Shown: positions 4,601 to 37,636 of the stretch, in pieces
How the letters are laid out: each line of letters opens with the position of its first letter
Position numbering within the stretch: position 1 is the stretch's first letter
Assembly: GCF_020618775.1 (NCBI RefSeq)
Contig: NZ_JAESVB010000002.1
Location: 558,001-622,000 of the forward strand
From: Acidisoma silvae
Lineage (GTDB): Bacteria > Pseudomonadota > Alphaproteobacteria > Acetobacterales > Acetobacteraceae
Reading direction: 5' to 3'
Length of the DNA: 64,000 bases
Translations under genes and position numbers: made by a program
The notes under the pieces: model-generated
Database searches by the model: none
What the model saw: only the letters and a program-made list of their open reading frames with translations
Told to the model about the DNA's origin: nothing

Positions 4601-7600
4601 CGATCCCCCAGCTCGGACTGCCCTTGCCACCGACGCCCACCGCCGATGACGCGCGGGTGCGCGCCAGCCAGCATCAGATGGCGGCGTCCAACCCCCTGGT
4701 TTCCACCTTCGTCGCGGCGTCCGCAGGCTCCGGCAAAACCAAGCTGCTGACCGACCGGCTGCTGCGCCTGATGCTGGGCGGCGTCGACCCCGGCCGCATC
4801 CTCTGCCTCACCTTCACCCGCAATGCCGCCGCCGAAATGGCGCTGCGCTTGCAGGACAGGCTGGGCCGCTGGGTCAGCCTGCCCGATGACGTGCTCAACC
4901 AGGCGCTGGCCGAGCTTGAGGTTCTGCCCAGCGAGGCGCATCGCAAACGCGCCCGCTCGCTGTTTGCCATCGTGCTGGACCTGCCGGGCGGCATGCGCAT
5001 CGACACCATCCACGCCTTCTGCCAGTCGCTGCTGCGCCGCTTTCCGCTGGAAGCCGGCATCTCCCCTCATTTCCGGCTGGTCGAAGAACGCGACGCGCTG
5101 ATTTCGCTGCGGGAGGAGCAGGAGCTTGTCCTGTCCCGCATTCATGACGACGCGCCAGGCATGCGTGACGCCGTCGATGCGCTGGCCGCCGAACTCAGCG
5201 CCGATGACCTGGACGGCCTGCTGCGCAAACTGGACGGGGCGCGGGAAAGAACCGAGGCGCTGCTGGCGCTGGACACCGAGGCACTGATCGCCAGCCAGCG
5301 CCGCGTTCTGGGCGCCGTGCGCAGCGCGGAGGCTATCTGGCAGGACGCGCTGTCGGGCGGCGCAGCCTCCGAATTGCGGCGCGTCCTCTTCACCATTGCC
5401 GAACAGGGGCCGCCCACCGTCCGCATTCGGGCGCTGGCTTTGCTGGACTGGCTGGCCGATGACGAAGACAGCCGCCGCCGCGACTGGACCGTGTGGAGCC
5501 GCAGTTTCTTCAAGGCGGATGGCGGCCCGCTGGCCCGGTCGACATTGGTCGGGAAAAAGCTCGATGCGGACCGGCCTGACCTGTGGCCGGTGATCGAGGC
5601 TGAGCAGGCGCGTCTGACCGCCATCGAAGACGCTTTCGCCGCCGACCGGCTGGCCGATCTGTCCGCGTCTTTCCTGCGCCTCGCTTTGCCGGTGCTGCGC
5701 AACCAGGCGCGGCGGCGGCAGGTGGAAGGGCTGATGGATTACGGCGACCTCATCATCCGCTCCAACGAGTTGCTGCGCGATCCCGGCGCCGCCTGGGTGC
5801 TGTTCAAGCTCGACCATGGGCTGGATCATCTTTTGCTCGACGAGGTGCAGGATACCGCGCCCGCGCAATGGACCATTGCCGGCAGCCTGACGGCGGAATT
5901 CTTCGCCGGCACCGGCGCACGGGAAGTGCAGGCGCAGACGCAGAAGGATGCGCTGGGCCGCACAGTCTTTGCGGTCGGCGACCGCAAGCAGTCCATCTAC
6001 GGTTTCCAGGGCGCCGATCTGCGCTCCTTCGACGATTGGCGGGACCGGTTGCGCCAGCGCGTCCGCCGCGCCCAGCGGGACTGGCATGACGGCGCGCTGG
6101 ACGTCTCCTTCCGCTCGGTCGTGCCGGTGCTTGCGCTGGTCGACGCCGTCTTCGCGGACCCCGAAGCCGCCCGCGGTGTGGTGGAACCTGGCAGCACAGC
6201 GCTGCTGCATGTCTCGGCCCGACCGGAAGATGGCGGGCAGGTCGAAATCTGGCCGCTGACGCCGCGCGAAGCGGTGCCGAGCCCCGATGCCTGGACCATT
6301 CCGGACAGCAATCTGGGCCAAACCTCGGCACCCGGACGTCTGGCGCGCGACCTCGCGCAATGGATCGCCCGGCTGACCGACGGCAGCCAGACGCTGGCAA
6401 GCCAAGGCCGGCCGGTGCAGCCCGGCGATATTCTGGTCCTGCTGCAAAAACGCGCGCCGATCGCGCCGATCCTGGTGCGCGAGCTTAAGGCAGCCGGCGT
6501 GCCCGTCGCCGGGCTGGACCGGCTGGAACTGACGGCCCAGGCCGCCGTGCAGGATCTGATGGCGCTCGCCGACAGCCTGCTGCTGCCGGAGGACGATCTT
6601 TCCTTCGCTTGCTGGCTCACCAGTCCTTTAGGCAATCTGTCAGATGAAAGCCTGATGGACCTCGCCGCCGGGCGCGGCCACCAATACCTGTCGGAAACGC
6701 TGCGCCTGCGCGCGGCGGAACGCCCGGATTGGCAATTCGCCTGGCATTTCTATGAAGTGCTGCAAGCGGAAGTCGATTACGCCACGCCCCATGCCGTACT
6801 GTCCCGCGCGCTCGGCGCGCTGGGCGGCCGGGCGCGGCTGTTCCGCCGCCTGGGCGCGGAAGCCGCCGAGCCGGTGGATGAACTGCTGAACGCTGCGCTG
6901 ACCTATACGGCAAGCCATGCGCCGTCCCTGCAAAGCTTCCTGCACTGGCTGCGGCAATCGACGGCGGAAGCGAAGCGCGAACCCGGCGCGGCCGGCGATG
7001 CCGTGCGCATCATGACCGTCCATGCCTCCAAGGGCTTGCAGGCGCGGATCGTCATCATGGCGGATGCGGCCAACAAGCCGCCCGGCGACCGTTCCTCTCT
7101 CCTCTGGATGCAGGATGAAAATAGCGGCCTGGAATTGCCGATCCTCTGTCCGCGCAAGGACAGTCATTGCGAGGCCAGCCGCAGCTTCCAGGGCATGGTG
7201 CAGGCCCGCGCGGTGGAAGAGCATCACCGCCTGCTTTATGTCGCCATGACGCGGGCCGAAGACCGGCTGATTGTCTGCGGCTGGGAAAGCGGGGGGCCCG
7301 GCAGCCGGGTGCCGACCTGGCATGAGCTGATTGCGCGCGGTTTCGACGCGCTATCGGCGCAGACGCTGGAAGACCCCAATTCCTTCCCACCGCTTCGCCG
7401 CGTTGTGACGGCCCCGCAGCGGCGCCCGCCACCGGAAGCCAAGGCGAAGGCCATCGGTCTGACTGCCGACCTGCCTAGCTGGATGGGTCGCGCACCCGAC
7501 TGGCAGACCGTGCCGGCCCCGCGCGAGCCGCCACGCCCGACGCCGCTGGCGCCCAGCCGGCCGGATGACGTCGCCTTCGGCCCGGTACCGGCCAGCGATT

Positions 7601-34041: not shown

Positions 34042-34122
34042 GAGGCCAAGCTTCGTTGCATTACGAACTCGTCATCATCGCAATGGTTGAACCGTAAGCG
34101 GCAGGCGCTCACTCTCCATCCC

Positions 34123-34494
34123 ATGACGGAAAACAGTCCTCATGATATCGAAATGCGCGCCGATGGCACCTTTGTGGAGGCGGCGCGCGGCCCTGGGGCG
34201 ACCGGCGCCCGCTTCACTGCAAGCTGGCCGCCGCAGGGCGCGCCACGTGGAGGGTTTGCGCGTGGGCTCGCCATAGCCGGGGTGCTGGCAGGTGCGGCCA
34301 TTGTCATCGGGCTGGTGCTGTCACTCGCCCTGATTCTGGTGCCCATGGCCATTGCAGCGGCGCTGATCGGCTACGCCGCGCTGCGCTTCCAGATGTGGCG
34401 GATGCGGCAAAGCGGGCAGACAATGCGCGGGCCCTTAGGGCCGATCATGGCCCAGGCCGAGGCAATGATGCGCAATCGCGCCGGGCGCCAATAA
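34123..34494 (+). CDS. Hypothetical small membrane protein
   Basis: A 123-aa protein: a polar N-terminus of about 45 residues (DIEMRADGTFVEAARGP), then a long hydrophobic stretch at about residues 47-83 (GLAIAGVLAGAAIVIGLVLS, then ALILVPMAIAAALIGYAALR) that is enough for two helices in a hairpin, and a basic, Met/Gln-rich tail. No family recognised. The start at ATG 34123 gives the conserved-looking MTENSPHD; a frame starting at 34087 adds 12 residues. It follows the ureohydrolase by 81 bp on the same strand. Confidence 0.65.
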   Translation: MTENSPHDIEMRADGTFVEAARGPGATGARFTASWPPQGAPRGGFARGLAIAGVLAGAAIVIGLVLSLALILVPMAIAAALIGYAALRFQMWRMRQSGQTMRGPLGPIMAQAEAMMRNRAGRQ

Positions 34495-34574
34495 CCTATC
34501 GAATTATCTTTTGATTCAAAATCGAAATAATTAGCCTTTGAAGTTGGGCTCAGTTAGGCGTGCGTTGTCACCCT

Positions 34575-34600
34575 GGCGGCACTGCTGTTGCAGCGCCGCC
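34575..34600 (+). other. Strong hairpin in the leader of the 26-aa microprotein gene
   Basis: GGCGGC and GCCGCC enclose CTGC/GCAG with a TGTT loop (10 paired bases, one mismatch), ending 17 nt before the GGAGG. It lies in a 382-bp stretch (34495-34876) that otherwise holds the microprotein, a terminator and a small dyad. It could be a leader structure or belong to a small RNA. Confidence 0.45.
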
Positions 34601-34631
34601 AAATCACGGGTGGCGAAGGAGGTGAGGGCAA

Positions 34632-34712
34632 TTGCCCGAAACTTTCTACCGCGTAGCGATGGTCGTTTTGACCTTGGCTTTGGTCATTCTCGCCATCGTG
34701 GGGCTTAACTAG
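34632..34712 (+). CDS. 26-aa single-helix membrane microprotein (TTG start)
   Basis: A TTG codon lies 9 nt after an AAGGAGGTGA ribosome binding site, the strongest in this region, and opens a frame of 26 codons ending in TAG: it begins MPETFYRV and the rest (AMVVLTLALVILAIVGLN) is one hydrophobic helix. The frame is too short for ordinary gene calls. A structured leader precedes it and an 11-bp terminator follows, making a self-contained transcription unit. Such one-helix proteins often attach to larger membrane complexes (transporters, respiratory enzymes), but no partner is adjacent. Function unknown. Confidence 0.6.
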   Translation: MPETFYRVAMVVLTLALVILAIVGLN

Positions 34713-34725
34713 CCTAGAAGCCTGG

Positions 34726-34755
34726 GGTCCCGTCTCCCTAGACAGAGACGGGACC
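34726..34755 (+). terminator. Terminator after the 26-aa microprotein
   Basis: GGTCCCGTCTC and GAGACGGGACC form an 11-bp perfect stem with an 8-nt loop, 13 nt past the microprotein stop, followed by a short TT. The stem strength fits a Rho-independent terminator although the T-tract is poor. Confidence 0.65.
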
Positions 34756-34789
34756 TTAGACGAGCTAGAGGTGGGGGCTCCTGCCCTTA

Positions 34790-34806
34790 CTTTCACCGCG
34801 TGAAAG
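34790..34806. promoter_or_regulatory. 17-bp inverted repeat in the microprotein/SDR intergenic region
   Basis: CTTTCAC-CGC-GTGAAAG is a perfect 7-bp dyad with a 3-bp spacer, 71 bp before the end of the SDR gene. It could be an operator or a weak terminator for the opposite-strand SDR. It resembles a parS half-site but the spacing is wrong. Confidence 0.3.
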
Positions 34807-34876
34807 CTATATACGCCCACGCACCTTAATTTTCAATAAAGCCTTTCTGCATCATATATCTTGGCCGCGGTTTGCC

Positions 34877-35629
34877 TCAAATCTGCGCCTGACCGCCATC
34901 GACATAGAGCTCGATGCCGTTCACGAAGCTGGCGTCATCCGAGGCCAGAAACAGTACTGCTTTCGCGATTTCCGCCGGCTGACCGACGCGGCCTGCCGGG
35001 ATGAGTTGCAGCAGGCTTGCCTTCACGCCTTCCGCCGCGTCACCACCACCGAACAGCGCGTTCAACCCAGCCGTCTCCGTCAGACCGGGGCTGACGGCGT
35101 TGACGCGAATATTGCGGTCCTTCAGATCCAGAATCCAGTTGCGCGCGAAGCTGCGCACGGCGGCCTTCGTGGCACTGTAGATGCTGAAGGCCGGCGTGCC
35201 CTTGATGCTGGTGATGGACGCGTTCAACACGATGGCACCACCGTCGCGCAGCAGCGGCAGCGCCTTCTGCACCGTAAAGACCGTGCCCTTTACGTTCGAG
35301 GCGAAGGTGCTGTCGAAATGCGCCTCGGTGATCGCGCCCAGCGGCGCGAAGTCACCGCCACCGGCATTGGCGAAAACAACGTCGATATGATCGTGTTTCC
35401 GCTGCACGGCGTCATAGAGCCGGTCGATATCCTCGAGCTTGGCCATATCCGCCTGCACGGCGGTGGCGCGCGGGCCGATCTGCTTCACGGCCGCGTCCAA
35501 GGCATCCTGCCGCCGGCCGGTGATGAAAACGAAAGCACCTTCCTCGGCGAAAGCCTTGGCGGTCGCAAGACCGATGCCGCTATTGCCGCCGGTGACGACG
35601 ACCACTTTGTCCTGAAACCGATTGCCCAT
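34877..35629 (-). CDS. SDR-family NAD(P)-dependent oxidoreductase
   Basis: A 250-aa classical short-chain dehydrogenase with cofactor motif VVVTGGNSGIGLATAK, the NAG motif FANAGGG, the catalytic Ser in LNASITS, and YSATKAAV (Tyr-x3-Lys). The C-terminus ASFVNGIELYVDGGQ is typical of this fold. Substrate not predictable. It is divergent from the LysR gene, which probably regulates it. This SDR/LysR pairing is common in proteobacteria. Confidence 0.9.
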   Translation of the reverse strand: MGNRFQDKVVVVTGGNSGIGLATAKAFAEEGAFVFITGRRQDALDAAVKQIGPRATAVQADMAKLEDIDRLYDAVQRKHDHIDVVFANAGGGDFAPLGAITEAHFDSTFASNVKGTVFTVQKALPLLRDGGAIVLNASITSIKGTPAFSIYSATKAAVRSFARNWILDLKDRNIRVNAVSPGLTETAGLNALFGGGDAAEGVKASLLQLIPAGRVGQPAEIAKAVLFLASDDASFVNGIELYVDGGQAQI

Positions 35630-35714
35630 TTGAAGTCTCCTGTGGTTGCGCTGATTGCGTGCCAGAAGATTTACTCAGGGAACGATCTTGCCAGTAGGCG
35701 GCAATATCGGCACT

Positions 35715-35738
35715 CATCGTTCCATTGATAGGACGATG
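35715..35738. promoter_or_regulatory. Imperfect dyad before the LysR gene
   Basis: CATCGT and ACGATG flank an 11-12-bp centre containing ATTGAT, overlapping the ribosome binding site of the LysR gene in the region shared with the SDR. LysR-type regulators bind T-N11-A dyads in such positions. Evidence is positional only. Confidence 0.35.
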
Positions 35739-35741
35739 ATC

Positions 35742-36641
35742 ATGATCGATCTCAACGACTATGCCTATTTCGCGGCGGTCGTTCAGCATGGCGGTTTCGC
35801 CCCCGCCGGGCGGGCGCTGCATATGCCGAAATCCAAGCTCAGCCGCCGCATCGCGGGGCTGGAAAGCCGCCTCGGCGCGCGGCTGCTGGAACGCTCCACC
35901 CGCCGCTTTCGCGTCACCGAAACGGGAGAGGCCTTCTACGCGCGCTGCCGCGCGATCCTGTCGGAAATGGAACTGGCCGAGGCCGTTATCGCCGCGGGTT
36001 TGAGCGAACCCCACGGGCTGGTGCGCTTCTCCTGCCCGACCGGCCTCGTCGGCGTGCTCGCGCCATATTTTCCGGCCTTCCTGAACCGTTACCCGAAAGT
36101 GCGTCTGCAAATCCTGGCGCTCGACAGGCCCGTCGATCTGATCGAGGAACGGATCGACGTCGCTTTGCGCGTGCGCCTGACGCTGGAAAGCGATGCCGCC
36201 ATGACCATGCGCTCGCTCGGCATGTCCCGACGCATCCTCGTGGCAAACCCGACGCTGGCCCGTGCCGTCAGTGAGGATGTCACTGCGCTCTCATCGCTAC
36301 CCGTTCTCGGCACCAGTGACGATGTCAGCGAGGTCGAATGGCTGCTGGAAGGGCCGGCGGGCGAAACCCATCGGCTGACGCTGACACCGCGCATGAGCTG
36401 CGGCGATTTCGATACCGTCAGGCAGGCAGCGCTGGCCGGCACCGGCATCGCGCTGCTGCCCGATCATGTCGTCTCGGAATGGCTTACGTCAGGGCAATTG
36501 GTGCAGGTTTTGCCGAACTGGCGGGGGCCGCCCGGCATCGTCCATCTGGTCTTCACGACGCGGCGCGGCCTGCCCCCGGCCGTCCGCGCCTTTATCGATC
36601 ACCTCGCCCGGACCTTTCCGGCGGAGGCGACGACCCGTTAG
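35742..36641 (+). CDS. LysR-family transcriptional regulator
   Basis: A 299-aa regulator: N-terminal winged helix-turn-helix (MIDLNDYAYFAAVVQHGGFA, then SKLSRRIAGLESRLGARLLERS), and a periplasmic-binding-like effector domain from about residue 90. The ATG at 35742 has AGGA eight bases upstream. It likely controls the divergent SDR gene. The effector is unknown. Its end overlaps the convergent dehydrogenase gene by 4 nt. Confidence 0.92.
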   Translation: MIDLNDYAYFAAVVQHGGFAPAGRALHMPKSKLSRRIAGLESRLGARLLERSTRRFRVTETGEAFYARCRAILSEMELAEAVIAAGLSEPHGLVRFSCPTGLVGVLAPYFPAFLNRYPKVRLQILALDRPVDLIEERIDVALRVRLTLESDAAMTMRSLGMSRRILVANPTLARAVSEDVTALSSLPVLGTSDDVSEVEWLLEGPAGETHRLTLTPRMSCGDFDTVRQAALAGTGIALLPDHVVSEWLTSGQLVQVLPNWRGPPGIVHLVFTTRRGLPPAVRAFIDHLARTFPAEATTR

Positions 36642-37636
36642 CCAAGAACAGGAATCTTGCCGCCCAGTTCATCCTCGATATGCACGCGGATGATCTGTTC
36701 GAATTCGCTCTCGGCGACGAATCCGAGCGAGGCCGCGCGGCTGGTATCGAACCCCTTGGCCCAGGTATCGACGATGCGGATGATCCGCTCATCCGGCTCG
36801 CGCTTTATCAGCGCCACAGCCTTCGGCCCGGCGACCTTTTCCAATGCCGCGATCTGCTCGGCCACGGTAATGGACAGGCCCGGCATCGACAGGCTGGTGC
36901 GGCCGCGCAGCAGCGCCGTATCCAGCCCCGCCGCATGAACCAGAAAGCCGATGGTGGCACGCGGGCTCGCCATCCAATGCTGAACCCTGTCGCTCACCGG
37001 CAGCACCGCCGGCAGGCCGACCAGCGGCTCGCGAATGATGTTGGAGAAGAAGCCGGACGCCGCCAGGTTCGGCTTGCCCGGGCGCACGCAGACGGTCGGC
37101 AGGCGCAGGCCGATGCCGTCGATGAAGCCGCGACGCGCGTAATCGGCCAGCAGCAGCTCGCACATCGCTTTCTGCGTGCCGTAGCTGGTGCCGGGCGTCA
37201 GGAAATATTCGTCGTCGATGACATCCGGCATATCGCCACCGAAGACGGCGATGGAGGAGGAGAAGACGACGCGCGGCTTCCAGGCCCCGCCTTTGGACTG
37301 CTCGACCCGGATGCCTTCCAGCAGGAATCGCATGCCGTCCAGATTGACGCGATAGCCCTTGTCCATATCCATCTCCGCTTCGCCCGAGACGATGGCGGCG
37401 AGATGGAAGATGATATCGGGGCGCCCGGCCAGCAGTTCGGTCGCCGCACCGGCCACCGACAGATCGGCCGCCGTACAATCGGTCGTGCCGATGAAACCAT
37501 GCGGCGTCGCGGGGGCGATGACGTCGATCAGGGTCAGATGCTCAACGGGCTTGCCGCCCAGGCCGCCGTCAGCCGCGATCCGCTCGGCCAGCTTGCGGCC
37601 CACCATGCCGGCGCCGCCCAAAATCATCACATGCAT
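36638..37636 (-). CDS. NAD-dependent epimerase/dehydratase, D-erythronate dehydrogenase (DenD)-like
   Basis: A 332-aa extended SDR with MILGGAGMVGRKLAERI (GxxGxxG), FHLAAIVSGEAEMDMDKGYRVN and the catalytic YGTQKAMCE, plus SSIAVFGGDMPDVI for the Ser/Thr region. The DenD family oxidises D-erythronate at C2 in tetronate breakdown. The normal companions (DtnK/OtnK kinase, OtnC/OtnI) are not next to it, so the substrate assignment is by family only. It overlaps the LysR gene by 4 nt. Confidence 0.8.
   Translation of the reverse strand: MHVMILGGAGMVGRKLAERIAADGGLGGKPVEHLTLIDVIAPATPHGFIGTTDCTAADLSVAGAATELLAGRPDIIFHLAAIVSGEAEMDMDKGYRVNLDGMRFLLEGIRVEQSKGGAWKPRVVFSSSIAVFGGDMPDVIDDEYFLTPGTSYGTQKAMCELLLADYARRGFIDGIGLRLPTVCVRPGKPNLAASGFFSNIIREPLVGLPAVLPVSDRVQHWMASPRATIGFLVHAAGLDTALLRGRTSLSMPGLSITVAEQIAALEKVAGPKAVALIKREPDERIIRIVDTWAKGFDTSRAASLGFVAESEFEQIIRVHIEDELGGKIPVLG

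Follow-up and report, generated by a model that had tools for sequence, protein, structure and literature searches.

A candidate chromosomal type I toxin-antitoxin-like module with par-like organisation in Acidisoma silvae

Does an open reading frame (ORF) of 26 codons in a gap between genes of Acidisoma silvae, a bacterium living in wood, encode a stand-alone membrane microprotein, or is it one half of a regulatory pair? The gap (positions 34495-34876) lies in the window, that is, the whole analysed stretch of 64,000 nucleotides (contig NZ_JAESVB010000002.1, positions 558,001 to 622,000), and is flanked by an ORF ending at 34494 and a minus-strand short-chain dehydrogenase gene (stop codon 34877-34879). 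The original prediction, made from the letters alone, had placed here a one-helix membrane microprotein in its own transcription unit. The unit seems to be half of a convergent pair, and therefore points to a type I toxin-antitoxin module rather than a stand-alone microprotein: we put at about three in four the probability that a chromosomal type I toxin-antitoxin-like module of par/Fst-like organisation lies here, restricted to its lineage and encoding an unrelated peptide. Support at the level of sequence comes from the coding frame, a paralogous family, a covarying stem-loop, direct repeats and cognate complementarity, together with a predicted antisense promoter. The parts of the locus, with the evidence for each, are listed here.

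34567-34614, plus strand: 5' stem-loop of the peptide messenger RNA (mRNA), with an outer stem of 7 base pairs (bp), a 3' bulge and an inner stem (folding and covariation)
34615-34624, plus strand: Shine-Dalgarno (SD) sequence GAAGGAGGTG, identical in the four subfamily-A genes (sequence comparison)
34619-34660, plus strand: direct repeat copy 1, comprising SD, start codon and first nine ORF codons (repeat alignment)
34632-34712, plus strand: membrane peptide of 26 amino acids, MPETFYRVAMVVLTLALVILAIVGLN, with a TTG start (ORF, homologues and substitution pattern)
34726-34755, plus strand: GC-rich 11-bp hairpin, 13 bases past the stop codon, presumed mRNA terminator (repeat search and folding)
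34768-34810, no strand assigned: direct repeat copy 2, whose minus-strand transcript is complementary to copy 1 (alignment and duplex energy)
34808-34836, minus strand: predicted antisense promoter TTGAAA-17-TATATA, with -35 at 34836-34831 and -10 at 34813-34808 (9 of 12 matches)
34725-34801, minus strand: predicted antisense (antitoxin) RNA, 5' end at about 34797-34801, 3' end at the shared hairpin being a guess (deduced)

All four parts named by the original prediction (the 26-codon TTG-start ORF, the SD, and the preceding and following hairpins) are present where it put them. The spacing from GGAGG to the TTG start is 9 bases, and the 5' hairpin consists of outer 7-bp arms (34567-34573/34608-34614) and inner 12-nucleotide arms (34574-34585/34590-34601) that are 92% complementary. 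What had been called an 11-bp terminator is indeed a perfect 11-bp hairpin (arms 34726-34736/34745-34755, 100% complementary); it has no T-run, and its label as a terminator is therefore presumptive.

The family was delimited by DNA and peptide searches of 60 genomes, including that of A. silvae (G000; 5,436,125 bases in 82 contigs). The DNA search found the unit twice in A. silvae and once in A. cellulosilyticum (G003), and the peptide search added a second A. cellulosilyticum copy. These are designated A1_win (the window copy), A2_G0 (A. silvae), A1_G3 and A2_G3 (A. cellulosilyticum). A third A. silvae member, the divergent paralog B1, was weak in the peptide search and gave E 0.0024 with the four-row A profile, and a fourth, the likewise divergent B2, was found by a profile including B1. 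Among the 17 places in the peptide search, five were kept as family (L004, L005, L015, L016, L017); those dropped were seven resembling what we take from sequence to be the HemJ C-terminus (L006-L009, L012, L014, L019), four resembling what is presumably a PsiE-type protein, and L013. The HemJ-like C-terminal segment P-x-x-FYR-x-AN-EVPT resembles the N-terminus of the peptide, probably by coincidence; the P-E-x-F-Y-R start common to both prompted the idea of an origin from a HemJ fragment, which was set aside on a profile search showing no such match in the A. silvae genome at E up to 10.

The four A peptides align without gaps; 16 of the 26 columns are invariant, counting residue one as M in every sequence, and the start codons TTG, TTG, ATG and GTG fall in the same alignment column. 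For the six pairs of A genes, synonymous divergence (Ks) is 0.56-1.79 versus nonsynonymous divergence (Ka) of 0.10-0.25, giving Ka/Ks of 0.12-0.33, and there are 9-13 third-position versus 0-4 second-position differences. This supports the 26-codon ORF as a real gene under purifying selection; a chance ORF is ruled out by the substitution pattern and the copies. Conservation of the frame in relatives had been set beforehand as a test, and the frame is kept in the ortholog and the paralogs, with the same start position. The further claims of a translated one-helix membrane microprotein, and of a setting too tidy for chance, are likewise supported, the former through purifying selection, the conserved start column and peptide hydrophobicity, the latter through retention of the same four parts in all four A genes, the third-position differences and the covarying stem-loop. 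B1 has CTG instead of ATG, GTG or TTG at the conserved start and carries an ATG three codons further upstream, which leaves its true start uncertain. At each of the six loci there is a G-rich SD and a post-stop hairpin, the hairpins coming from single-sequence folds. The six peptides have 26-27 residues, a maximum 17-residue Kyte-Doolittle mean of 2.15-3.02 and no tryptophan; the A peptides lack a charged tail, B1 ends in KLRN and B2 in KLH. A PHROG match of one peptide (E 0.21) was taken as chance.

In the four A genes, the 5' stem-loop abuts GAAGGAGGTG or is separated from it by one base. Across its 18 pairs, 95.8% of 71 cells are paired and 7 of the 18 pairs are changed on both sides, values that none of 500 shuffles reached, and slid versions pair at 27.5-55.1%. 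Further pair types are no more numerous than in shuffles (369 of 500 have as many), the alignment consisting of four sequences in two ortholog pairs. For B1 and B2, the 5' structure is predicted from single-sequence folds only. Nothing in the window matched a known RNA of Rfam at gathering score, and four sub-threshold matches (E 1.1-3.5) were taken as chance. Upstream of the stem-loop lies an AT-rich TTTTGATTCAAAATCGAAAT-like stretch (about 34509-34534), possibly a promoter or regulator site; by eye, A1_G3, both A2 copies and B2 have partly similar stretches in their upstream flanks.

The second half of the proposed pair rests on an element missing from the original prediction, the recurrence of the translation-start region at 34768-34810. 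Past the hairpin, SD, start and first codons recur as a direct repeat, in the same order at all six loci. The start region (-22 to +30) was compared with a 200-base stretch that starts 45 bases past codon 26, against 2000 dinucleotide shuffles. Local scores were 35 (A1_win), 19 (A1_G3), 24 (A2_G0), 24 (A2_G3), 39 (B1) and 41 (B2), reached by 0, 252, 15, 51, 0 and 0 shuffles, respectively, and the A1_win repeat was also recovered by a separate repeat search. By this comparison the repeat appears decisive at three loci (A1_win, B1, B2), suggestive at the two A2 loci and not significant at A1_G3. Duplex energies between start region and antisense RNA, in the same order of loci, were -60.5, -49.4, -44.6, -45.6, -55.6 and -60.8 kcal/mol, with 0, 1, 23, 28, 0 and 0 of 300 shuffles as low; the A1_win duplex has z = -7.2. 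The cognate assignment of mRNAs to antisense RNAs over the six loci ranks first of 720 (sum -316.5, mean -249.5). Among the A. silvae RNAs, the cognate one is the best partner for all four start regions (for A2 by just 0.7 kcal/mol), and the same holds for both start regions within A. cellulosilyticum. When 12-14 kb around each locus was scanned in 10-base steps, the repeat was the top site for A1_win and B2. Taken together, the evidence for antisense pairing looks strong for A1_win, B1 and B2, mixed for A1_G3, and weak alone for both A2 copies. The earlier interpretation appears correct yet incomplete, an antisense RNA half being encoded just past the hairpin; its "own transcription unit" is a reading of the anatomy, with no clear sense promoter, and seems to form one side of a convergent arrangement rather than to stand alone.

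Promoter-like hexamers on the antisense strand lie past the repeat: TTGAAA-17-TATATA at A1_win, TTGAAA-17-TATAGT at A1_G3, CTGGAA-18-TATATA at A2_G0, CTGGAA-18-TATCGT at A2_G3, CTGGAA-18-TATATC at B1, and weaker ones, CTGGCT-16-GATAAG, at B2, where they rank below TTGAGA-18-TTTCAT. Matches of 12 number 9 (A1_win), 10 (A1_G3) and 7 at each of A2_G0, A2_G3, B1 and B2, and the listed site is the best or tied-best antisense promoter in five of six loci. The combined p of 2.9e-7 (versus all positions) or 2.3e-5 (versus the same flanks) is optimistic, because ortholog pairs are non-independent and the start point was picked after looking. The predicted RNA start, GGT(A/G), falls 7 bases past the -10 in four loci, 8 in B2 (counted to GGTA, not to an earlier GGT there) and 10 in A1_win, placing the predicted antisense RNA starts 79-128 bases after codon 26. 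At B1, the predicted RNA would end at its own GC-rich hairpin and T-rich tail TTTATTTT (L051, opposite the minus-strand unit 6448-6531, on its downstream side), and would be a self-contained small RNA gene. A second promoter-like match in the window, TTGAGG-18-TATGAT (34880-34851, minus strand), also points to the peptide unit.

In the proposed mechanism, a short mRNA (5' stem-loop, strong SD, 26-codon ORF, terminator hairpin) would be translated into a single-helix inner-membrane peptide, while a convergent small RNA would start in the second copy of the translation start, on the far side of the hairpin. The 5' part of this small RNA would be complementary to the stretch of the mRNA that runs from the SD through the start codon into the first codons, and pairing there, perhaps also via the hairpin that both RNAs may share, would block ribosome binding. 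On depletion of the small RNA, the peptide would be made, insert into the membrane and slow growth.

Several observations weigh against this account. Of the inferred steps (transcription, repression and toxicity), toxicity is the least supported. No convincing sense promoter was found; four of the six antisense promoters match at 7 of 12 positions only, a score reached at 7-8% of other positions; and at A1, A2 and B2 the shared hairpin lacks a T-run behind it in the antisense direction. The A1_G3 and both A2 repeats are weak taken alone (252, 15 and 51 of 2000 shuffles). In the flank scan, the repeat came second for A1_G3 and in the third row for B1, and the A2 repeats fell outside the best six sites listed. 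The runner-up assignment, a swap of the two A2 orthologs, is 1.1 kcal/mol behind, and the A2_G3 start region pairs better with the A1_win (-57.1) and A2_G0 (-52.0) RNAs than with its own (-45.6). Mirrored changes that keep pairing are modest in number, being 2 between the A1 orthologs, 1 between the A2 orthologs and 3 between B1 and B2, and the paired columns in the three comparisons are 61, 50 and 72 for cognate versus 57, 50 and 64 for swapped partners. Four of the six peptides were scanned against Pfam, NCBIfam and PADLOC, and none of these four matched a family; cationic residues at the C-terminus, frequent in toxins of this type (PMC8309996), are missing from the A peptides.

A useful, non-toxic small membrane protein, such as a membrane-complex subunit or regulator, with its translation tuned by the convergent antisense RNA, would explain the purifying selection on the peptide without the postulated toxic action, and single-helix regulators are common. 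We nevertheless regard it as unlikely, since it sits poorly with several paralogs in unrelated contexts, a distribution limited, as far as searched, to two close species, largely cognate-specific antisense pairing, and the absence of one locus from four relatives. A simple microprotein gene followed by the dead remnant of a tandem duplication of its 5' end, with no antisense RNA, draws on our own reading of the B1 and B2 repeats as the start of a similar peptide, on the weakness of the A2 and A1_G3 repeats and on the scarcity of mirrored changes. It is distinctly improbable given that the repeat keeps the same order at six loci though the other 3' flank aligns poorly, that gaps in the repeat break the frame relative to the ORF, and that promoter-like sequence lies on the opposite strand just past it. 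The structured, covarying 5' region could instead belong to a regulatory RNA with an incidental ORF, an idea we consider hardly credible against coding-type substitutions, constrained amino acids and a conserved SD and start. The type I toxin-antitoxin-like module is preferred over all three.

Clear members of the family are present in two species only: A. silvae has four and A. cellulosilyticum two. No credible match came from the remaining Acidisoma genomes compared (G001, G002 and G004; best E 1.41). In 397 genomes of the taxonomic family, the best A-profile match outside the two species had E 9.5e-4, and with the B profile only A. silvae and A. cellulosilyticum passed 0.1; in 395 genomes of the order, A. 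silvae alone passed 0.01, A. cellulosilyticum evidently being outside that sample. The best E lay only between 9.5e-4 and 0.5 in 12 of 14 genomes matching the A profile and in 48 of 50 matching the profile including B1, and these weak matches, not read singly, are mostly inside long open frames. A pattern scan of a collection of 84,980 species confirmed 2 of 35 candidate stretches, both from A. cellulosilyticum (the window's own records were maybe excluded). The peptide is short, and distant relatives may therefore escape such searches. A mobile-element origin was also considered and dropped, there being no confirmed relative in viral contigs (three alignments) and none by tblastn in plasmid and phage records with the A1 peptide or in plasmid records with B1.

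The four A. silvae loci have different neighbours, with the downstream gene convergent at each of them. A2 lies between what we take to be ffh and an aldo/keto reductase gene, B1 between a glycosyltransferase and an RF-1-domain gene, and B2 between a presumably radA-like gene and Hsp20. The B1 unit is absent from the four other Acidisoma genomes, the gap in A. cellulosilyticum holding dissimilar sequence, so either A. silvae acquired this locus or it was lost from the others and decayed there. A1 lies between the dehydrogenase gene and that of a small unnamed protein with a hydrophobic segment and no Pfam match (34087-34494), directly after an arginase-family gene. Relatives of this protein follow the same gene in G001 (52% identity), A. 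cellulosilyticum (84%) and G004 (51%), with none in the 5 kb taken from G002. In the window, as in A. cellulosilyticum, dehydrogenase, LysR and epimerase genes (34877-37636) stand between the unit and a DUF445 gene. In G004, which has no family member, DUF445 directly follows the arginase and small-protein genes; in G001, also without a member, neither the dehydrogenase nor the LysR gene follows within the 6 kb taken, the epimerase alone being found. From these arrangements, the gene block looks inserted or lost.

Type I modules are difficult to detect from sequence. If the proposed module is real, it would bring an Fst-like convergent layout with an unrelated peptide to a Gram-negative class, and would supply a search rule (a short hydrophobic ORF, a hairpin, and a downstream repeat of its own translation start), while the presence of four copies in A. 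silvae would allow direct tests of cross-talk and specificity among antisense antitoxins. With somewhat less assurance than for the module itself, we favour an undescribed par-like type I family in Alphaproteobacteria, independent of Fst, with four copies side by side in a single genome and each antisense RNA recognising its own mRNA. A literature search, covering titles, the starts of abstracts and few subscription papers, found no such system in Alphaproteobacteria or Acetobacteraceae, which is weak evidence of absence.

Several known systems offer comparisons. Membrane type I toxins are described as small hydrophobic peptides of <60 amino acids with a predicted transmembrane helix (PMC8309996), a description that the Acidisoma peptide fits in predicted size and hydrophobicity. 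Among the E. coli systems, Ibs/Sib is similar in having several short hydrophobic peptide genes per genome, with antisense RNA over the translation start; it differs in that Sib lies opposite the whole ibs ORF (PMC4147584), whereas the predicted Acidisoma RNA starts in a separate repeat past the hairpin and pairs imperfectly. Barring read-through past the hairpin, the Acidisoma RNA would not cover the whole ORF as Sib does. TisB, ShoB and ZorO are also short hydrophobic peptides. TisB/IstR-1, ShoB/OhsC and ZorO/OrzO share a neighbouring antitoxin RNA with limited complementarity, but the two genes of each pair diverge, and the RNA is complementary to the long 5' untranslated region rather than the translation start (PMC4147584).

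The par system, reported from Firmicutes, has two RNAs that converge across direct repeats, the antisense one lying over the translation start; its prototype peptide has 33 amino acids and a charged C-terminus, and the Fst superfamily usually contains tryptophan, absent from the prototype itself (PMC7472228). With par of pAD1 (Fst/RNA I-RNA II) and its chromosomal homologs, the Acidisoma loci share a small single-helix peptide, a hairpin between the genes and a structured 5' part of the mRNA. Also shared are two direct repeats, the first at the translation start of the toxin and the second within the predicted antitoxin gene, clear in A1_win, B1 and B2 and weak alone in A1_G3, A2_G0 and A2_G3. 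Where par has a bidirectional factor-independent terminator, there is a hairpin at all six loci with the antisense T-run missing at A1, A2 and B2; where it has convergent promoters, there is predicted antisense promoter-like sequence at six loci, the sense promoter not having been found. The peptides differ, those of Acidisoma having no tryptophan, no Fst signature and no visible sequence relatedness to Fst, and a comparison of four of the six with the Pfam and NCBIfam libraries, in which the presence of an Fst model is unconfirmed, returned no match, to the Fst/Ldr superfamily or to any other family, at E up to 10. The arrangement looks like a kind of toxin-antitoxin system described mainly in Gram-positive bacteria, and we conclude from its sequence organisation that the module probably works in the manner of the par type, with a peptide that does not appear to be of the Fst family.
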